This document shows positions 1 to 19,865 of a stretch of DNA of 27,808 nucleotides, one piece after another. The number at the start of each line of letters is the position of its first letter. The first letter of the stretch is position 1. Made by a program: the position numbers and the translations under genes. The notes beneath the pieces are model-generated. The model saw only the letters and a list, made by a program, of their open reading frames with translations, was not told the origin of the DNA and ran no database searches. This stretch comes from Halichondria panicea (Eukaryota; Porifera; Demospongiae; Suberitida; Halichondriidae): contig NW_026986599.1 of assembly GCF_963675165.1 (NCBI RefSeq), positions 1 to 27,808 of the forward strand. The letters are read 5' to 3'.

Positions 1-478
1 CCTTGCTCTACGTACATAGGGCTGAGATAGAGGTAATAAAACATACATGGAAAAAAGAACAAGTGAGTCCACAGGTGGCTGACTACCATGCATCCTCCAC
101 AATTTCTTGCTCTTTGATTTGCAGTTTATTCTCAACTTCGCCAGGAAAAGTTCTTGATAACAAAGTGCATGGGCTGCGGCTGCTGCTTGTATTCTCAGTA
201 GTATATGCTCAGCCTATATGAATGCATGCATGCATGTGCTGTGACAGTGTATACAATGGCTATGTGCTGCAACACTGTAACGTAGGCCTTATTTTGCACA
301 TAATTATGGCTGCCTTATACTGTTATCGTCAGTGACCAAGCAGCACAGATTATAGGCTAGTCTGTATTGGAGTTTAGATCTACATAAACATTATAGCCAT
401 TGATTCTCAACTCAACCTCCTATTACTGTTGTGCTGGCTTGACTCCACTGCTCAGAATAGACTTCTCTAGGGGGGCCC
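1..478. other. Left flank, no gene recognised
   Basis: Host or older repeat sequence outside the large transposon. The one long open frame here has no recognisable domain and no convincing splice context. A short ATGCATGC run lies near 221-235. The last bases before the transposon are G-rich (about 470-478). Nothing else is supportable. Confidence 0.5.
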
Positions 479-480
479 TA

Positions 481-512
481 CACAGATAAAAACTTTCAGT
501 AAATATGACAGG
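481..512 (+). repeat. Left terminal inverted repeat of the large transposon
   Basis: Starts CACAGATAAAAACTTTCAGT and continues to a TGACA block. It aligns to the reverse complement of 8518-8550 with a few small gaps. The flanking TA at 479-480 matches TA at 8551-8552. Confidence 0.62.
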
Positions 513-571
513 AAATGTATGTTGTATTGATGCAGATCTCCTGACAGGTTAAATACTGTTGTTTTGACATA

Positions 572-1075
572 GGAGAAATATGTTATATTAGCATAGACTT
601 TAATGTCAGGGTAACAGGGATCATTTGTAAAGATAACAGGTGAGTAGTGTATATAACAGCAATGTACGTTATAAGAGCATTGACTTTTATGTCAGTGTTA
701 CAGGGACCATTCGTAGACAGAACATTGAGTATAGTGTATATAACAGCAATGCACGTTATATTAGCATAGGCTTTTATGTCAGTGTTACAGGGACCATTCG
801 TAAACAGAACATTTCAGTATAATGTATATAACAGCAATGCACGTTATATTAGCATAGGCTTTTATGTCAGTGTTACAGGGACCATTCGTAAACAGAACAT
901 TTCAGTATAATGTATATAACAGCAATGCACGTTATATTAGCATAGGCTTTTATGTCAGTGTTACAGGGACCATTCGTAAACAGAACATTTCAGTATAATG
1001 TATATAACAGCAATGCACGTTATATTAGCAAAGACTTAAATGTCAGTGTAACAGGGGGCACTTGTAAAAACAACA
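572..1075 (+). repeat. Left subterminal tandem array, 88-bp unit, about 5.5 copies
   Basis: The landmark TGTATATAACAGCAATG recurs with starts near 648, 735, 823, 911 and 999, giving 87-88 bp steps. The middle copies are nearly identical and the outer copies are degenerate. Each unit contains TGTCAGTGTTACAGGG or a variant. The array lies between the left terminus and the 3' end of the SAM-domain gene. Such arrays in CACTA-type elements commonly bind transposon-encoded proteins; that role here is inference. Confidence 0.9.
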
Positions 1076-1210
1076 GTTTTGTATGTTACTTTCATGTACC
1101 CATGCAGTTCAATATAATTATGCAGTGATGGAGGCAACAAATTCAACTGGTATTATAACATACACTGAGAGCCAACAAAAGAGTCACAAGTATATAGGCA
1201 GAGTCATAGT

Positions 1211-4087
1211 TCAATCCTCTTCCTTGAGGAAACACTGAGCAGCAGACGTCACGCTCAGGTACGTAGGACTCTTCTTGTCACACGAGGGACTAATATTGGC
1301 TATTTTGTGTTCGATAAATAGGTAAAAATCGGTTAGACGTGGATGATATCGAATGTTAAACACGTAGTGGGCTGCAAACAGTGCAAGGACAGATTCGATC
1401 AGGTTGCTACATTCGACGAGCAATTCCTGCTCAATCACAAGGAAGAATTGTGGAGGAACGTCATCACTTGTGTCACTCAGCTGGACAATGAAGGGTTGGG
1501 TATTAGCTGCATCCACACACTCACTGGGAGGAGTTCCACGCTAAAATTAATTATGCATGTGTGAGAGAAGAAGATAAGATTTAATGCCCGCATAATAATT
1601 ACTGATATATATATTTTCCTTACAGGTTTGTCCCAAAGAATGAAGGGGGTGTCCACCCATGTCCCAACTACATCCTTTCCCTTTTTTTTGGCTGTAAGGA
1701 AGTGGGCCCAGCAACGAAGTGACGTTAGATCTGTGACAATAAATAGGAAAATATGCACACATTATAAATACCTATACAAGTCATATGATTACTTATGCTA
1801 TGAATATCGCCGCATAATTATATACCTTTATTATCACATTGTCGCAATGCCTGTTGTACACCGGTCGGAGGGGATTTAATGGCCTTAGCATACTCAACAA
1901 TAGCTTCCCCCCATTTCTTCCAACTGGACACAAAGATTTCCTTAAACTGTTCGTCCTTCTTCATTATAGTGATAAACTCCATAACCACCTACACAAAACA
2001 CAAAAACTGGTTACAACTAATTACTTAGTGGAGTACGAGTAGTCAATATTATTATATGTACTTACAAAACTAAATTTCTTTAACAGAGGCCATTCCAGAC
2101 ATATTGAATTAACAGTTTTGACATCCTCGTTAAGGATCCATTTTCTTCGAGAGACACTTGTTCGCTTCATTAAGTCCACTAGACTGTCTTTTTGTGGGCG
2201 AGTTTTTGTCAACTCGCTGTCAAGAAGAGCTTTGTTGCGTTTGTCACTAACATCATCGTTACCCATGTCATCTAGGCCTGGATAAGCATGTTTATTAACA
2301 TCAATTGTTTTTGAGCGCTTGGACTTCGGGGCATCAGAGCCATCAAAAACATGTTTCGTTCCAGGCGTGCGATTAATGTTCTGGCACTTTGTGTATAGAA
2401 AGTGTTGCCAGGAGTGCTGCAAGTGAGAGATGAATTGATTTGGCTCAAGCAAGATCATGCAAACACACATTAGCATACATGTAGGATAAAGAAATTACTC
2501 ACAGCTTCTGACAAAAACGGATATTTTCGAAGAAGAGCCTCCGCAACAAGCTGACAGTCCCTCATTGAAGCTCTTTCTAGGTGAGCACAGATGACATGTC
2601 CCAACACAGATATTATGTGTCTCCTGTCATCGTCAGCTACTTTTTTTTTGTCTAAATTGTTTTGTGTGTACTTTCTAAACATCGGTATAGGGAAAGGATT
2701 TGGAAGACTCTTCTTAATCTGCAAACAAACATCAGTATACAGCCAACATCAAACACAAATACAACTAACCCTAGATGACTTTGGAGTGGTGCCTGGTTTG
2801 GATTCCTGTGGAAAGAGTACACTAACAGGCAGCTGGAAATAATTCTATAGTGCTTACGCTAGAAGCACCAGATCCAGGGGATTTAATAGGCACAGTGGAG
2901 GCCTGTGGAGAAGTTGCGTGTAACTAATGCAGTTCATTAATTCTATTATATTATAGTGCTTACGCTAGAAGCACCAGATCCAGGGGATTTAAAAGATACA
3001 GAGGGCCTTTGGCTGAATTCCATGAGACTGGAGGCCTGTGTGGAGAAGTTGCGTGTACTATGGCATGCAGTTACTATTTACATAGAAAAATGCTCGACAG
3101 GACATTACCGTACAGCGTCGTGTTACACACGAAAATTAAGTATTTCACATGCAAAGTATTTCACATGCGGCATTGAAACGCAAATGTTAGAACCGAAAAA
3201 ATGTTCTGCTGAGGGCAAATAGCGGGTTCCGCTATATACAGTACTTACAGGACTGGATCCATAATATTCAGAAGAAGCACCATCCTCCTGAATGAGGTAT
3301 CGTATACGTTTAGTACAGCATTTTCCACAAAAACTTCCATATAATAAACATATAATAAACATGTGTGACAATTATGGTTGAGAAAACGCCAAACCGTATT
3401 ACGCCTATTCACAAGGTATTTATTTATTGACTTACCCGTTGAATTGGGGACGTTGGCTTATCAATTAGACTTTCCTCCTGAAAAAATGCCATAACTATAA
3501 AGTCTCTAAGTCATAATTGTTGTGCTATATACCTCTTCTTGAAAAGCTGATTTAATTGCGTGGTAAACCTTTAAGCGCAGTCCAAGAGCAGGTACTACAC
3601 CTTTGAAGCAGTCGGGCCCAGGGCAACTGGAAAGAGCCATTTGGAGGGCCTCTCCATCCATCTCTTGATCTGCACAAATTAAACGATGGCACTCTATAAA
3701 ATTCTTGAGCAACAGCCTTAATTATTAAAATAATTATGTATACCTTCGAAGGCGTTCACTACTTGTTGTTTGAATCCTTTGCCCTTCATCCAATAACCAA
3801 CTTCCAGAACGTCCATGGAAGCTAGAGATTCCATAACTCGCTGAATATGCCTTTGTTGTAAACCGTTCTTGCTAGAGCTGTACTGAAATGAAGACAATAA
3901 AACGCACATGGCCAACCCACGTGAGCAAATTTATTTGAAGACCACCACTAGGCATATCGCGCATGGTGACAAGGGAATGGAAGTGGTTTCCATAGATCCA
4001 GTACAGTGTCGAGGTGTACAGTGTGGCCGGAGGATGCAGATGCAAAATTAATGTGTATTGCATAATTGGTACCTGGGATGAGCTCAT
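1211..4087 (-). CDS. SAM-domain protein, SAMD3-like, second protein of the transposon
   Basis: Thirteen exons in plus coordinates, 5' to 3' on the minus strand: 4087-4073, 3882-3744, 3669-3533, 3477-3436, 3287-3249, 3035-2964, 2902-2858, 2805-2770, 2718-2503, 2416-2066, 1988-1826, 1730-1624 and 1540-1211. All introns are GT..AG, phases agree, and the sum is 1,692 nt (563 residues plus stop). Residues about 33-95 fit a sterile alpha motif: W36, then GKGF, VVNAFE, DQEMDGEAL and VPALGLRLKVYHAI. Residues about 98-175 form a Ser/Pro-rich linker made of tiny exons. Residues about 176-563 resemble the C-terminal region of metazoan SAMD3-like proteins, including LLRKYPFLSEA, SWQHFLYTK, a WPLLKKFSF segment and, near the end, HYVFNIRYHP followed by FIEHKI. 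The family's function is unknown to me. A role as an accessory DNA-binding or assembly factor for transposition is inference from position. Further in-frame ATGs exist upstream (to 4162), so the protein could be longer. Confidence 0.75.
2847..3056 (-). repeat. Tandem duplication of a small exon in the SAM-domain gene
   Basis: Exons 2964-3035 and 2858-2902 both end by encoding KSPGSGASS, share the same GTAAGC donor and begin GCCTCC after a similar acceptor. The duplicated block repeats at an offset of about 106 bp, with an internal deletion in the 2858-2902 copy. Both copies keep phase 0, so either can be included or skipped without a frame change. This lies in the Ser/Pro-rich linker. Confidence 0.82.
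4073..4087. promoter_or_regulatory. Overlapping divergent start codons in one palindrome
   Basis: ATGAGCTCAT at 4078-4087 is its own reverse complement. Read on plus it starts the transposase (ATG AGC TCA TAC); read on minus it starts the SAM-domain protein (ATG AGC TCA TCC CAG, then a GT donor). An in-frame TAA at 4063-4065 just upstream fixes the plus start if that transcript is not spliced upstream. Each promoter would therefore lie inside the other gene: the plus promoter in the first minus-strand intron (3883-4072), the minus promoter within the first plus exon. Confidence 0.55.
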
Positions 4088-7000
4088 ACTACTGTAACAA
4101 TTGCTCTTTCTGCTGTGAACAATGGAAAACATATGTGAGACATTGCTTTGAAGCTCATGCAAGTGAATTCAACTTCAGTTTTTCATGCAGAATAGACAGC
4201 TGCCCTAGGTCCTTTAACACACTCTCTAGTTTTCAATCACATGTTTTAAGAAAGCACCCAAATTCACAACCTCCCCCTGTTCCAATAAATGTACTGGACG
4301 AAGAAGGAGATACTGGTAGATCCTCCCAATCTGATACTGAAGATTTATCCGACGGCCAGCAAGATACTCCGACCGACTCGGAAGATACTGACTCAGAAGA
4401 TCCCCTAGATTCTGTAAATCCAGGCCCACACTCGTATGATGGCGCACAAAAATCGGCAGCCTTGTTCTTGTTAAGGATGAAAGAGCAGCACCGACTCACT
4501 CAAGTCTCTATAGACTTTGTCGTTTCCCATATGAATGGCATAATCTCAAGTGTCATGCAGAGCACACAGGAAAAAGTTTGTGATAGCATTCGAGGACAAC
4601 TTACAGATGTTCAAATGGAAACAGATCCACCAGATGTTTCAAGTTGCTTTGCACCTGTCAATCCATTTGAAGGCCTTGAAACAGAGCATAAACAGCTAAA
4701 ATTCTATCGGGACCACTTCAACCTTGTGGTAAGTCTTGAGTCTTCAATTATTTTTTTGTAGTGAGATACTCTGCCATGGTGCGATACATTTAATATATTA
4801 TAATGAATATTTCTTTTAAGGAGCCAGTGACTGTTGAACTTGGAATAATCCAAAGATATAGGCAGAGAGGTTTTACTTCTACTCTTGTGGATCAGCCAGA
4901 AAACTTTCAGTACGTCCCTTTGATCGAGGGTCTGAATGCTTTGTTTGATAATGAGGAATTTCTTGATGAGGTGAGTAGTAGACATGCATGTACACAACGA
5001 AGGAATTCTTAATTATGTATACATGCATATGGGTATAGCGCCTCACACTGCCTCACACTGCATGCATGGAGGTTAATGCAGCCTGTCTGGTAGAATTCCA
5101 TGGTGCCATTTTGCAGGTTCTGCAGTCTCATTCAAGATCTGATGGCTATATTTCTGATTATTGCGATGCTACATTTTTCAAATCTCATGAGATGTTTCGT
5201 AAAAATAATAATGAACTGCAGTTAATCATGTATTTCGATGAAATCGAGGTATGTAATCCTCTCGGAGCACAAAGAGGGATTCATAAATTAGGTATAACTA
5301 ATTGTACAGTTATGTAAGTATTACACTCGGAAAGTATAGCGCACTCAATATCTATTGTTTGGAGGCTTGCATGAGTTTTATGGTTGCTCGTAAAAGTATG
5401 TACATGTATATATACTCCACATGAATATACCTGTATATATACAATGAACATGTACAGTATTATGTGACGCTATGTCTTTTCTATCCTGTTTAGGTATGTT
5501 CTATTACATGCTAGGGAATCTAAGACCGGAATTAAGAGCGACTCAGCGGTCTGTTCAGCTGATTGCGTGTGTTACTAATAGTAACATTGTGAAGTATGGA
5601 TTCGAACCTATTCTCAAACCGTTTATTGATGACGTCAAAAAACTTTCAGAGGTACTATACATGCACGTATACATTAGATATAAAATTAATTACATGGCAT
5701 GCTGACTTAACACATTTGCACTTCTGTTAAATAATTTGTTATTGTCTTATTGTAGGAAGGTATTACTATTAAAGGACGAACACTTCACGGTACAGTCCTC
5801 TCACTACTGGCAGACACTCAGGCGGCGCATGCCATTGGTGGCTTCAAAGTGGGTGTAGGATGGGCTTTAAGGAATTGTAGGATCTGTATGGCCACAAAAG
5901 AGCAAAGTCAACAAATGGTATTTAGTGATTACAATGGTGTACACTAAATAAAACACTTTACGTACATATATGATTATGTGCATATTTATCTTCGCCTTTC
6001 TCTTTACAGTTTCATGACGATCATTTTCAGCGAAGAAACCCTTCATCTCACAATCTCCAATGTTCTCTCCTTAATGGCCCCCATAGTACCGCTGACTCTA
6101 CAACGTATGGAATTAATGAACGTAGCGTACTCAACGATATTCCATACTTTCATGTTGCGAAACCTATGTTACCTCAAGATGTAATGCATCTATTGTTTGA
6201 AGGCGTAATTCCGTGGGAAGTTAAACTTATGTTGACGAAGTTCATAAAGGAGAAGCACTACTTCAAATTAGATGAACTGAACGGAAGGATTCAAAATTTT
6301 GCGTATGGGCGATCTGAATCTAGGAACAAACCCCCCCATACCTTTGAACCAAATCACATTTTTGAAAGTTCAAAACTCCCTGTCTCTGGTGAGTATGATT
6401 ATAGTAATAATAGTGTTGTAAACTTCCCGACTCAAGGGAAAGGTATCGTTTACACTTTGAGGTTGTGCTAATTGTTACTATAATATTTTTACCTGAGTGC
6501 TTCCTGCAAGTATAACTGATGCTTTTTATGCAGCTAGCCAAATGTGGACCTTGGCCATATTCCTACCCTTAATGATTGGAGATAAAATCCCTGAGGAAGA
6601 CCCACACTGGCAATGTTTTCTCCTTCTTCTGGAGATTATCAAGTTTTGCACAGCACAGACAGTGTCTGAAGCTTACTCTAAGTGTTTAGCTGCTTATATT
6701 GAGCAGCATCATCTGGAGTTTCGCCGTTGCTACCCGTCAATATCAATGATTCCAAAATCTCACTACATGGTTCACTTTCCACAGCAAATGCTTGAGTGAG
6801 CAAATCTATAAAATGGATGCGTGATTATGTCAGTAACTATTACTAGTTATAGTTGTCACGTCATAATTTGCACTTAACACTTTATGATACAGACTTGGTC
6901 CTTTAGTGACTAGTTGGTGTATGCGAATGGAAGCAAAGAATGCCTATTTTAAGAGAGTTGCACAGATAGGAAACTTCAGAAACGTGGCATACTCCGTAGC

Positions 7001-7836
7001 GAGACGGCATCAGAGGCTTCTTTGTGGATATTTACATGGACAATTCTTCACCTATCATGAATTGCAATGTGGCCCTTGTAAGTATATATAACACAATAAT
7101 TATAGCTGCACGTAACATGCAGTTAATCGCTTTGTGCATGGGATTGCTAGACACCTTAACATTAACTGCTCAAGGTTAATTAAACGTTAGGGAGACTTAT
7201 CGCAATCACAGACTCGACTCACCTGTCCTGCATGCCTATACTTGTTTTTCTTATTCCCAGGTAAAGCACATACCACCACAGTGCTGGGAGAAGATTCCCT
7301 AAAAGATGATGTTTTGTGTGTTTTGCCAGAGACAGATGCAAGTAACAAAGTATCGAGGTAATGAATGGATGTAACCAATGTACTCCTGTTTTCTTTTTAC
7401 AATACCATAAAGTTACATGTAGTATATAATTCACCGTCGTTATAGTGTGCTCTATTTAAGTGTACCAATTTTATCTGCATATTATACTATTAATTAGTTC
7501 CTTTTCTTCTACAGACCTAACTGGATAAAATCATATGGCCAAGAGTACCACAGGTCCTCCTTTGTTCATTGTGGGTGGCAAACTACCGATGATTTACCAG
7601 TATTCGCCAAGATTTGTGACATTTTGGTAATTGTTAACTGTCCTCTTCTATATGTTGAAGTGTTTGATACTGAAGGGATGAATAATCATTTGTCAGCATA
7701 CGCAATAGTCCGCACACTCAGAAAAAAAGTTATTCACCTTCCCACTTGTGCCAACAAACAAGTTTATTATTCACATACTTCTCAAGGTGATAGGAGACTA
7801 TACATTGCTGTACGTTCTTTTGTGGCACAGACATGA
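4078..7836 (+). CDS. C2H2 zinc-finger DDE transposase, CACTA/Tnp2-like
   Basis: Ten exons: 4078-4728, 4821-4970, 5117-5291, 5494-5651, 5756-5917, 6010-6388, 6534-6795, 6893-7077, 7261-7357 and 7515-7836. All introns are GT..AG, phases agree, and the total is 2,541 nt (846 residues plus stop). Two N-terminal fingers are visible: C6-x2-C9-x12-H22-x4-H27 and C37-x4-C42-x12-H55-x4-H60. An acidic Ser/Asp-rich stretch follows. The core carries YFDEIEVCNPLG (D308), LLADTQAAHA (D398) with a nearby CRIC knuckle (C419, C422), and LPQDVMHLLFEGVIPWEV (D489, H492, E496). By analogy with Tnp2-type transposases, D308, D398 and E496 are the likely catalytic triad. Later segments (IPKSHYMVHFPQ, WCMRMEAKNAYFKR, ARRHQRLL) match conserved parts of this family in animals. 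The expected role is nuclear cut-and-paste transposition, with the fingers probably binding element ends. Splice sites are inferred, not observed. Confidence 0.83.
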
Positions 7837-8120
7837 TCTATTTTTTGTAATGTTTGCTGATGTGTTATATTGCGTTCGCTATATATAGTTAAAGGGCATG
7901 TCCAAATAATTGTGGGAAGTGCTAGATGGCGTACGCGTCTATATAATGAGCTCGTGCATATTCACATGCAAAAGTATCCTTTACCTTTTTTTGCTTATAT
8001 TTCATGACGCAGGGACGCAGGGGGTAACTCTTTAGCGTCACAAGAGTTTGTACTTGCTTGTCTGTTATATTTAAAGTAACGTATAGGGCATGTCAAATGT
8101 ACAAATTTTGTTGTAATTAT

Positions 8121-8350
8121 TACAAAGCCAGCTTAAAGTACAACATATCCTGTTACTATAACAAATGAATATGTTATCATTACAAAGCCAGCTTAAAGTA
8201 CAACACATCCTGTTACTATAACAAATGAATATGTTATCATTACAAAGCCGGCTTAAAGTACAACATATCCTGTTACTATAACATATAAATGTGTCATCAT
8301 TACAAAGCCAGCTTAAAATACAACATCCTGTTACAATTACATATGAATGA
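8121..8350 (+). repeat. Right subterminal tandem array, 60-bp unit, about 4 copies
   Basis: TACAAAGCCAGCTTAAAGTA recurs at 8121, 8181, 8241 (one G change) and about 8301, exactly 60 bp apart for the first three steps. The last copy is degenerate. Each unit contains CCTGTTAC, whose reverse complement GTAACAGG matches the GT(A/T)ACAGG core of the left 88-bp array. The array sits between the transposase stop codon and the right terminus. Confidence 0.9.
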
Positions 8351-8517
8351 TCATAGCAACTACGTGAACTGTTACCTTAACTATCGTTTGTTTCTTCTAC
8401 AGAACGTTGGTACATGTTACAGCGGTATGTTTCTGAAACAGTATGTATCTGTAGAGAACACAGTGCTATGTTTCCTTTACGTTCACATGTACTGATAACA
8501 ACATGTTAAAATAACAA

Positions 8518-8550
8518 ATATGTCAGAATAACGAAGTATTTCTTTCTGTG
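8518..8550 (-). repeat. Right terminal inverted repeat of the large transposon
   Basis: Read on the minus strand it starts CACAGAAAGAAATACTTCGT and continues to CTGACA, aligning to 481-512. TA follows at 8551-8552. A TGTCAGAATAAC motif here resembles TGTCAGGGTAAC in the left array. Confidence 0.6.
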
Positions 8551-8560
8551 TATAATCACT

Positions 8561-8600
8561 AAGGGGGGCGTATACCGCTAGTGCAATGGGGCCCCCCCTT
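8561..8600. repeat. G/C-run hairpin beside the insertion site
   Basis: AAGGGGGGC at the left and GCCCCCCCTT at the right can pair around a 20-base loop. More G and C runs follow to about 8660. A similar G run (AGGGGGGCCC) lies just left of the transposon at 469-478, so the element may have inserted into or next to an older GC-rich repeat. Confidence 0.5.
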
Positions 8601-8695
8601 ACACCCCAAATTGTAGCGTTTTAGGGCCGGGGGCCCCAAAATAATGGGGGGGCCCATATCGCTTCTACACCGGTCAATTCCAGAGGAGGGTGGAC

Positions 8696-9359
8696 CAGAG
8701 GAGGGAGGACATGATTAACCTTAGCTCTAATTAGCTAATTATCGCGACCTTTTAATTACATTCTTTGAACGATTCATCTTTTCTTTCTTTATAACCTCTA
8801 CATATTGGGTAGAGCAAAGTAAGCCTTTTCTCCTACTGGAGGTACCCCTATGGCCAAGTTGTCAGGACCTGAAGGTAATAGGACCCCTATAAGAAGCACC
8901 TCAAGTACTCCTATCTCTAAGATCCCTGTAAGAAGCATCCCAGGCACTCTGATCTTGTCTCTGTGAGAAGCACTCTTGATCCTGGAGACAGGATCCCTAT
9001 GAGGAGCACCACAGGCACTCCTGTCTCCAAGATCCCTGTGAGCACCCCAGGCACTCCTGTCTCTGTGATAAAGCTGCAACATGGAATTGTTTAGTTCAGA
9101 GTGTCTCCAACATGAAGAAAATCAATGACACTAACAGTCTCAGCTTCTAGCACCCCTTTATTTGTATGGTTTGCTCTAGCTGTGGCCTGTGCCTGCAAGA
9201 ATTGCCTGTCACTCATACTATATACTACAGTACTGTTCTGTGTGTCCCAATATGTAGAGGTTATAAAGAAAGAAAAGATGAATCGTTCAAAGAATGTAAT
9301 TAAAAGGTCGCGATAATTAGCTAATTAGAGCTAAGGTTAATCATGTCCTCCCTCCTCTG
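8696..9359. mobile_element. Foldback MULE-like non-autonomous element, 664 bp
   Basis: Arms 8696-8809 and 9246-9359 appear to be perfect 114-bp inverted repeats beginning CAGAGGAGGGAGGACATG. The 9-bp sequence AGGGTGGAC flanks it on both sides (8687-8695 and 9360-9368). A 9-bp duplication with long arms is typical of Mutator-like elements, but the family is not proven. The interior (about 8820-9080) contains degenerate repeats of a GATCCCTGTGAG...GGCACTCCTGTCTC unit. No transposase is visible. Identical arms imply recent movement or arm homogenisation. Confidence 0.85.
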
Positions 9360-9368
9360 AGGGTGGAC

Positions 9369-9781
9369 AGGGTCAAAAGGTCACTAATGAATCATCACGT
9401 GAGCTTATGTTTTGTGCAGTAAATTTGCAAGTTTGACTGCACATCCCGCCCTGATTCTTGTGATAACATATCAAAACATGGCAATGTCAAACGTCAAATG
9501 AAAATTTTTACCCCCACTCAATATTTGTGACGTTTTTTTGTCATTCCTTGTCATAATTTGTCATTTCCTCTTCATGTATATTAAGCCCATGCAGTATGTA
9601 GGACTGAAGCTGCGCCCCAAGTACTTTCTACATACATGCATATATATGCATGCATGCATGCTTATGGCATTAAAATTTAAGTTGAAGTAAACTGGTAAAA
9701 ATCGCGAATTCCCAGAGAGAGGAAGTAAAATAAATTTGTTCGTGGAACTAAATTAGTTTTATTGCACCTGCATTATTGTAG
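9369..9781. other. No gene seen; probable intron or spacer
   Basis: AT-rich sequence with an ATGCATGC cluster at about 9635-9661. It ends in a pyrimidine-poor but plausible AG acceptor at 9780-9781 for the Death-domain exon. No coding exon was recognised. Confidence 0.4.
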
Positions 9782-10123
9782 GACCAGCTGCTAATCGATC
9801 CACTCTCCAAGATCTAGTGAGCAGATACAGTCTGACTGACAAGCAGCTCAATAGTGAAATAGGGGACTCAGATATTCTCTACGTGGCCGAATATTTCGAC
9901 GGGTCGAAAATCTATGCGAATGCAATGGGACTAACTCCTGCAGAACAGGCCGATGTGAATGAGTTGTACCATAAAAATGGAACTCAAGTAGCCATGACTG
10001 AATGCTTGATTATCTGGAAAAGACACAATCCTTACGCAGCAACTTACAAAGCTGTACTGGAGTTGTTACTGAGACTGAGAAAAGACAAGATAGCTGATGA
10101 TATCTGTCAGCACTTGACTCAAT
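9782..10123 (+). CDS. Death-domain exon (partial gene)
   Basis: An open exon of 342 nt between an AG acceptor (9780-9781) and a GTGAGT-type donor at 10124. Both boundaries are phase 1, so it is a symmetric, shufflable exon. The translation shows six-helix Death-fold hallmarks: DILYVAEYFDG at the start, a GLTPAEQADVNEL helix pair, then MTECLIIWKRHNPYAATYKA with the usual tryptophan, and LLRLRKDKIADDICQHL at the end. Death domains serve as protein-protein adaptors in apoptosis and innate signalling, and are expanded in sponges and cnidarians. No other exon of the gene was recognised. If not spliced, the frame runs on to a stop at 10171-10173. Joining to the next apparent acceptor at 10923 would create TGA immediately, so this may be the last domain of the protein, or an orphan exon. 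Confidence 0.7.
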
Positions 10124-10251
10124 GTGAGTATAGAATCAATACTATAATTATTATTATAGTTTTAGTGATGTAAATGCTTATAATTATACCACAAACATGT
10201 ATTATTGTCTTGTGTTGGGTACATGCCATTATTCTAGATTGTACTGGTGTT

Positions 10252-14111: not shown

Positions 14112-14671
14112 ATCCGACTAGAAAAACAATTGCAATGTGAAAAATTGCTAGGATTGGCCAGGGGAACCACAAAAAAGCGTGGGAACAAGAAATCAGACGA
14201 GAGCATAACTCCAATCCGTTACAACGTCATGAACATGTACAATACATAGTATATTAAATAATAGACTGTGTTCCAGATCCACCTATCAGCTTCCATCCAC
14301 CACATCATTCCATGCAGTCACCAGTACGGTCCGTGCATGTTACTACGCATGGATGGACTGTGTGTGCCTGTGCTCAACACTGCATGTATTAGGAACATCA
14401 ATTCATCACAAATCATCATGATTATGTGCCCCACATTCTAAAATGGATGTATAATAAATATATATAGGGATTGGTCATCACTCCACCAGTAAAAATTGCG
14501 TGGCATATTGGCTGGGAAAACATAGGAAAACTACCAGTATATATACATGTGATTGACGTTGTAACGGATTGGAGTTATGCTCTCGTCTGATTTCTTGTTC
14601 CCACGCTTTTTTGTGGTTCCCCTGGCCAATCCTAGCAATTTTTCACATTGCAAATGTTTTTCTAGTCGGAT
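14112..14671. mobile_element. Foldback element with 118-bp arms
   Basis: Arms 14112-14229 and 14554-14671 are inverted copies differing at about one site, with outer ends ATCCGACTAG / CTAGTCGGAT. The 324-bp loop has no recognisable coding sequence. I could not find a convincing target duplication, so the true termini may differ and the superfamily is unknown. Confidence 0.7.
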
Positions 14672-19153: not shown

Positions 19154-19865
19154 ATTCACATCATAAGCTTATTAGATGGAGAATCGTCACTCATGGCTGC
19201 ATTGACAGCTACAGTAGGCTGGTGACTTTCTTGAAGTGTTGTGGCAATAATAAATCGCCAACAGTGTACGAATTATTTTTGTGTGCAGTTCAAAAGCATC
19301 AGCTGCCATCTCGTATATAAGAATGGACCAAGGTGGGGAAAATGTATTGGTCGCACGTCACATGTTAGAAAAAAGAGGACATGATAGGAGGAGTGTGATT
19401 GTAGGAGCCTCGGTCCATAATCAACGCATAGAGCGACTATATGGAGGGACATGCACCGCTGTGACTATTCTCTTTTACAAGCTGTTTTACTTTATGGAAC
19501 AAGTGGATCTATTAGACTGTTTGAATGAGACGCATCTGTATTCCCTTCATTATAATGTGTTCATTCCACGTATTAATCAGGCACTTGCACTGTTCATTGG
19601 TGGATGGAACCATCACTCAATCCGAACTACACACCGTAAGTCTCCACACCAGTTGTTTACAACAGGGGCACTACTTTTGCAGCACTCCGGACTCGCAGCT
19701 TTGGATTTTTTTGAGAATGTGGAGAAAGAATATGGAATGGATATGGAAGGCCCCATCCCGTCTCAGGGACGTTCTATAGTTGTGCCTGAGGTGCCAATAA
19801 GGCTAAGTTCAGAGAATTTTGCTCTCCTACAGCAAACTGTTAATCCGTTAGCATGCACCTTCTGA
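19154..19865 (+). pseudogene. Integrase-core (rve-type) transposase-like protein, C-terminal half, frameshifted
   Basis: After an AG acceptor-like site at 19152-19153 the frame reads HHKLIRWRIVTHGCIDSYSR and stays open to a TAA near 19318. There the homology moves to another frame, beginning RMDQGGEN and running to the stop at 19863-19865. Further hallmarks are [44 protein letters not shown]. The D in RMDQ and the E in RIERL are separated by 34 residues, a D-x34-E spacing typical of integrase-type DDE cores. The upstream part with the first catalytic Asp and the helix-turn-helix is not recognisable here. This resembles the metazoan integrase-core-domain proteins linked to DNA transposons (possibly IS3EU or Ginger-type; I cannot decide). 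The small shift near 19312-19320 and the missing 5' part make it a relic. Confidence 0.78.

Follow-up and report, generated by a model that had tools for sequence, protein, structure and literature searches.

We analysed a window of 27,808 nt (positions 1 to 27,808 of contig NW_026986599.1, forward strand) from the genome assembly of the sponge Halichondria panicea (GCF_963675165.1). Positions 481–8550 hold a transposon with two genes placed head to head, a transposase and a partner with a SAM-like N-terminus, which is very probably an autonomous-looking animal CACTA/EnSpm (CMC) cut-and-paste element. An initial annotation made from the sequence alone had proposed a structurally complete two-gene CACTA-like transposon here, and the gene models, the empty insertion site and a Tnp2 profile match support it. 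The locus comprises the following features:

1..478, no strand: host repeat entered by the transposon, left part
479..480, no strand: target-site duplication TA, left
481..8550, no strand: whole transposon, 8,070 bp, CACAG...CTGTG, defined by the empty site
481..510, + strand: left terminal inverted repeat, imperfect
582..1056, no strand: left subterminal array, 88-nt unit, 5.4 copies (Tandem Repeats Finder)
1211..3834, − strand: partner gene of 12 exons (1,629 nt including the stop), with a SAM-like N-terminus and conserved C-terminal region
3834-3744, 3669-3533, 3477-3436, 3287-3249, 3035-2964, 2902-2858, 2805-2770, 2718-2503, 2416-2066, 1988-1826, 1730-1624, 1540-1211, − strand: partner exons
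3835..4077, no strand: head-to-head interval, 243 bp between start codons, defined by the gene models
4078..7836, + strand: transposase gene of 10 exons and 2,541 nt, with D308, D398 and E496 and, N-terminally, two C2H2-like fingers
4078-4728, 4821-4970, 5117-5291, 5494-5651, 5756-5917, 6010-6388, 6534-6795, 6893-7077, 7261-7357, 7515-7836, + strand: transposase exons
8112..8347, no strand: right subterminal array, 60-nt unit, 4.0 copies (Tandem Repeats Finder)
8521..8550, − strand: right terminal inverted repeat, imperfect
8551..8552, no strand: target-site duplication TA, right
8553..8674, no strand: host repeat entered by the transposon, right part

The initial annotation made no mention of the terminal arrays, the duplicated TA, the zinc fingers or the SAM-like region. 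Its placement of the DNA in an animal genome agrees with ten Wnt-family matches over the cut-off.

The limits of the element follow from empty copies of its insertion site, which the initial annotation had recommended seeking in the source genome and which were found there. We searched that genome (131 Mb in 39 contigs, the window included) with a 132-nt query that joined the left flank (398–480) to the right flank from 8553, one TA being removed. Seventeen of 40 rows crossed the junction with 96–100% identity over at least 128 of the 132 nt, and two rows elsewhere in the genome were uninterrupted and 100% identical over all 132 nt. The 21-nt flank junction occurred at 19 genome places (11 exact, eight with one mismatch), compared with zero for a reversed-pattern control. 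The flanks belong to a multicopy host repeat covering stretches 1–480 and 8551–8674 of the window. Because uninterrupted copies match the flanks once one TA is dropped, 481–8550 is one 8,070-bp insertion at a TA of this repeat, with the TA duplicated, and the proposed termini stand as the insertion boundary. Since the transposon sits in one copy of the host repeat, the insertion is younger than that copy. The same observation disposes of the very improbable idea that two domesticated host genes are flanked by repeats by chance: the copy is single and intact and its genes are intron-rich, as that idea would have it, but the empty site contradicts it by showing the entire 8,070 bp to be one insertion with a duplication, and we rejected it.

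The terminal repeats were also considered as evidence for the ends. The inverted match claimed for them holds for CACAGA, common to both ends; the repeat is otherwise short and imperfect, with 13 of the first 20 positions matching. When CAC/GTG pairs were scanned, the score of 481/8550 was equalled by three others in that stretch, and of the four only 481/8550 had a matching duplication. We rejected the terminal repeat as sufficient proof, as it did no better than chance pairs and aligned below the best shuffle; the ends therefore rest on the empty site.

The transposase gene was recovered as first annotated, with ten exons, 2,541 nt, a single terminal stop and GT-AG boundaries at every intron. 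The two genes stop 714 and 730 bp from the termini, in line with the earlier estimate of about 0.72 kb. The N-terminal fingers match Pfam weakly (best E 0.00036, under that model's cut-off). Compared with seven other loci of the genome, the window transposase showed 35–52% identity over 199–607 aligned residues, and an alignment of six rows contained 65 invariant columns, with D308, D398 and E496 invariant in all six. CMC transposases are described as carrying C(2)C and H(3-4)H motifs (PMC12730594, as excerpted). Between the second D and the E, the window protein has C419-x2-C422, kept in five of six rows (L019 differs), thus the C(2)C motif expected of CMC. H446-x3-C450, invariant in the compared rows, lies at the place of the described H-x(3-4)-H, so the strict H(3-4)H motif is absent from the window transposase. 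Since cysteine can stand in for histidine in binding metal, the H-x3-C lowers the strict motif membership and not the mechanism.

A sister family in the same genome, with L001 as its reference copy, encodes most of the transposase protein in one continuous frame. Six of the nine window exon junctions align to this frame free of gaps over the stretch compared, which lends independent support to the transposase frames first proposed. Junctions 2 and 4 have a gap of two residues at the join or close to it; at junction 1, both the sister and L017 have a stop together with a gap, as if the intron were shared. Window positions 4821–7836 contain eight introns and the sister transposase is nearly intronless there, which plainly shows that introns have been lost or gained inside a single lineage of transposons.

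The partner gene differs from the first model. Instead of the 13 exons and 1,692 nt proposed, which we did not reproduce, it is read in 12 exons from the first Met at 3834 to a stop ending at 1211 (1,629 nt, 542 codons), the thirteenth exon being unneeded; counted from the first acceptor site, the frame is 1,677 nt. All its introns are GT-AG, no internal stop occurs, and alignments with other families place the Met at about 3834. Three regions match the sister relatives (E 2.4e-7 for the N-terminus, 2e-5 for the middle and 3.8e-11 for the C-terminus), and the linker formed by exons 3–7 found no homology support in the comparison with relatives. A phmmer search of the PDB with the sister partner's N-terminus gave as best match the SAM domain of L3MBTL3 (E 0.0047), and all ten PDB matches up to E 10 are, we presume, SAM-bearing proteins. 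As no SAM domain scored over the curated cut-off in the partner gene, we label it SAM-like. Among the literature matches listed, a SAM-like CACTA partner gene is undescribed; Repbase lay outside that search, and we do not claim absence. Window positions 3130–3243, in an intron of this gene, hold a small dispersed repeat, to which alone 21 of the 38 rows from the whole-element search correspond.

SAM domains are frequent in host proteins. The partner could on that account be a captured host passenger outside the transposition machinery, its function being a matter of inference and its linker exons having no homologous support; we think this quite unlikely. The partner adjoins the transposase in five of the seven lineages examined in this genome (window, sister, F14, F17 and F18) despite a change of orientation, being back-to-back in four of them and on the same strand, downstream of the transposase, in F14, and its three conserved regions are shared by window and sister. 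The back-to-back layout of the window recurs in L001, L017 and L018. In F18, the C-terminal partner match lies on the opposite strand from the N-terminal one and could be part of a different element. The interval 3835–4077 is probably a two-way promoter. The corresponding interval between the sister genes carries TAACCCTAACCC-type repeats (L001 4503–4573).

The class of the element emerges from profile comparison. An hhalign comparison of the window-family profile (eight rows) with a profile of eight Tnp2 open reading frames from the same genome gave a probability of 99.8% (E 2.2e-27, 403 columns) over the catalytic core, compared with 0.6% for a reversed control and 0.1–0.3% for five column shuffles; homology of the DDE core to Tnp2/Transposase_21 is thus found at the level of profiles. 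The genome contains 30 Transposase_21 matches, 25 of them over the cut-off; the eight Tnp2 frames were taken from these loci, none of which coincide with window-family rows. The termini begin with CAC, as CACAG in the window and CACTG in three sister families, and exact CACTA is absent; the CCC of TRC ends is likewise absent, with CAC at both ends. Duplications of 2 bp in nine of ten insertions fit animal TRC and not the 3-bp rule of plants. Subterminal arrays and a second gene with a putative helper role are present. The Pfam Plavaka model matched nothing in the genome; we set it aside as uninformative, as it was silent in all 14 control genomes too.

The element might instead be assigned to a CMC-related superfamily of its own, apart from CACTA/EnSpm proper, a treatment given to the fungal ESTA elements with their TA duplications. 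This is unlikely: the 2-bp duplications, the H-x3-C that replaces H-x(3-4)-H across the compared rows and the want of a Transposase_21 match, the genome's 30 matches lying elsewhere, would favour it, but the Tnp2 profile match over the catalytic core is strong, the ends are CAC..GTG, and 2-bp duplications are already known in animal TRC elements (PMC1636069, in the portion available). The window element is structurally complete and well preserved, and it belongs to a kind that is known, though little described, not to a new superfamily. Its distinctive traits are the SAM-like partner, the 2-bp duplications and the H-x3-C in place of H-x(3-4)-H.

Several observations weigh against reading the window element as an autonomous-looking CACTA/EnSpm transposon. 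The hmmscan search with Pfam Transposase_21 returned no match to the window transposase, and the sister reached only E 0.012, under the cut-off. In the partner, SAM_2 scored 14.5 bits against a cut-off of 20.5 (E 0.042); the sister N-terminus, assembled for this search with the splice placed by judgement, scored 18.7 bits with SAM_1 against a cut-off of 23 (best Pfam E 0.0023). A partner gene was looked for near L008 and L019 and not found, and the same-strand, downstream partner of F14 is a different layout. Aligned locally, the two end regions reached a score of 27, compared with a best of 30 in 100 shuffles, which marks the repeat as weak. The whole-element DNA search of the genome found no second copy with the window element's ends, and the first 29 nt of the left end have a single genome occurrence allowing up to three mismatches. 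On the supporting side, the 88-nt and 60-nt array units differ yet have the words TATAACA and CCTGTTA in common, which occur in the ends 12 and seven times, respectively, against 0.2 expected for each from the element's middle; these counts are weaker evidence because tandem repetition inflates them.

Searching the genome at the protein level gave 70 exon-level matches. The sister family has six copies, five of them 99.69–99.98% identical to the reference L001 over the compared lengths, with ends CACTG..CAGTG. Five of the six are flanked by 2-bp duplications (CT, AA, TG, TT and CA); the remaining copy, L009, has an unmatched TT/TA and is the tenth scored insertion. The sister transposase has a 911-codon open stretch in five of six copies and one of only 643 in the sixth (C1:2194144). 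Because these copies are near-identical, the two-gene design moved recently in the sister family. Two of them, L004 and L005 (G000:C11:2499400-2517100), share one orientation, are separated by about 7.8 kb and look like independent insertions, because their duplications, TT and CA, differ. Two further families were bounded: F14/F15, in which F14 spans 10,355 bp with ends CACTGTAAAAAA and a TA duplication and F15 also has a TA duplication, and F17, of 7,182 bp with ends CACTGTTAAAA and a TG duplication. CACTG..CAGTG ends are common to the sister family, F14 and F17. Across four families, matching 2-bp duplications occurred in nine of ten insertions (binomial 1.4e-10 at 1/16 each). This count covers insertions with both ends and leaves out F18, L019/L020, L006, L007 and L008 (ends not identified) and F16 (left end lost); the F14 and F17 ends were chosen as the best-scoring repeat pairs, with the duplication unused.

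The initial annotation had staked its reading on other full copies with ends at 481 and 8550, and none turned up in the genome; the insertion is nonetheless real, because the empty site shows that it took place. The whole-element DNA search found elsewhere only broken pieces of 63–89% identity (C16 and C3) that did not reach the ends. We rejected an absence of relatives as a conclusion from that search, as both emerge once the alignment tolerates gaps: in anchored blocks, the C16 copy (L007) differs by 3.6% substitutions (56/1,576) and the C3 copy (L006) by 3.3% (20/607). Over the 2,183 positions aligned, the two together have 76 substitutions, set against 55 anchored indels (41 deletions and 14 insertions, seven of the latter exact tandem duplications). 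Their 37 coding changes fall at codon positions in the numbers 13, 11 and 13, without third-position excess, which indicates that these copies decayed neutrally; the relatives thus decayed without constraint and are uninformative on the present constraint of the window copy.

Whether the window copy is a dead or silenced relic, structurally whole and immobile now, is a question to which we give somewhat less than even chances of a yes. Its ends occur in a single copy, its two closest relatives are fragments broken up by many short deletions, and its terminal repeat is imperfect; against this, both frames, the splice sites of 20 introns, the duplication and the arrays are all intact. The earlier suggestion of a recently active copy holds for the group, with its near-identical sister family and shredded relatives, rather than for the window copy. 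Relative to substitutions, short deletions, mostly of 5–20 nt, and short tandem duplications are unusually many in repeat copies L007 (G000:C16), L006 (G000:C3) and L010 (G000:C14). Across 17 host-repeat copies, 158 mismatches were accompanied by 47 deletions and 60 insertions; many of these indels, being common to several copies, are probably specific to the window copy. At the deletions, microhomology was a little over random (mean 1.02 vs 0.74).

Plants are the chief source of known CACTA elements, and there the ends are organised by a second protein, TNPA. The window transposase would most likely bind the CACAG ends, guided by its N-terminal zinc fingers, and would cut and rejoin DNA at a site staggered by 2 bp. 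Plant precedent and gene layout suggest that the SAM-like partner may be a TNPA-like helper that associates with itself through SAM; it would coat the TAACAG/GTTATA-rich subterminal arrays and so bring the ends together. The same considerations suggest that the shared 243-bp interval could drive both genes. We also put forward, tentatively and as a possibility we rather doubt, a distinct animal CMC lineage whose defining marks would be CAC[TA]G ends, duplications of 2 bp, a metal site of the form C-x2-C/H-x3-C and, polymerising on the arrays, a SAM helper that is obligatory. If so, a helper unrelated to plant TNPA would do the same job and would have been kept through changes of gene order.

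Other features of the window lie to the right of the element. Just right of the host repeat, 8696–8809 and 9246–9359 form a 114-nt inverted repeat, 100% complementary and 436 nt apart; 8696–9359 is probably a young short transposon. A second inverted repeat of 128 nt (14112–14239 and 14544–14671, 97% complementary, 304 nt apart) makes 14112–14671 likely to be another short inverted-repeat element. The 203-codon open frame at 19254–19865, with an integrase core domain (PF24764 rva_4, E 1.2e-38), is a remnant of another mobile element. An open frame at 9757–10173 has a weak Death-domain match (E 0.016), under the cut-off.

With an animal element that is intact, has exact ends and a proven empty site, and carries a partner that is conserved yet looks different, a two-protein animal CACTA system becomes testable. 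The near-identical sister copies provide several related families, all within the same genome, on which to test it. The invariant H-x3-C is a sequence mark for finding the lineage elsewhere.

Among known systems, Spongebob/EnSpm-4N1_HM, a hydrozoan and insect CACTA element that has nothing of the sponge except its name, shares the 2-bp duplications; unlike the window element, it has CCC ends, and the available part of its description reports no intact transposase frame (PMC4298943). ESTA, Plavaka and other CMCT elements are EnSpm-like, with C(2)C, CA..TG ends and duplications of 2 to 5 bp, and ESTA also has a TA duplication, a likeness to the window element at the level of description; those described in the excerpted source are fungal and treated for their TET/JBP cargo (PMC12730594). 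Capsaspora, a relative of animals, has two CACTA families with 3-bp duplications (PMC4007536, in part). Animal TRC elements are described in the portion available as having 2-bp duplications and CCC ends (PMC1636069). SmTRC1, the Schistosoma TRC, resembles the window element as an animal CACTA-type element with 2-bp duplications (in seven of 14 copies), and there too insertions into repeats served to show empty sites (PMC1636069, same portion). Both have a Tnp2-type transposase, known for the window element by profile. TRC differs in that its ends start with CCC, the window's with CAC, and its single open reading frame has a Transposase_21 domain, whereas the window transposase has no match to that Pfam model and is accompanied by a SAM-like gene (PMC1636069, as above). 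Plant CACTA elements are described, in the text available, with 3-bp duplications, subterminal repeats and a second open reading frame (PMC8978399). En/Spm is alike in its CAC ends, subterminal repeats, transposase with a second open reading frame, and multi-exon transposase whose intron number varies between families; its duplications are of 3 bp and the window's of 2 bp (PMC8978399, PMC4158355, both in part). The window family further differs from En/Spm, as far as the available accounts of it go, in having H-x3-C where H-x(3-4)-H is expected and a SAM-like partner encoded by a separate gene that mostly lies in divergent orientation to the transposase.

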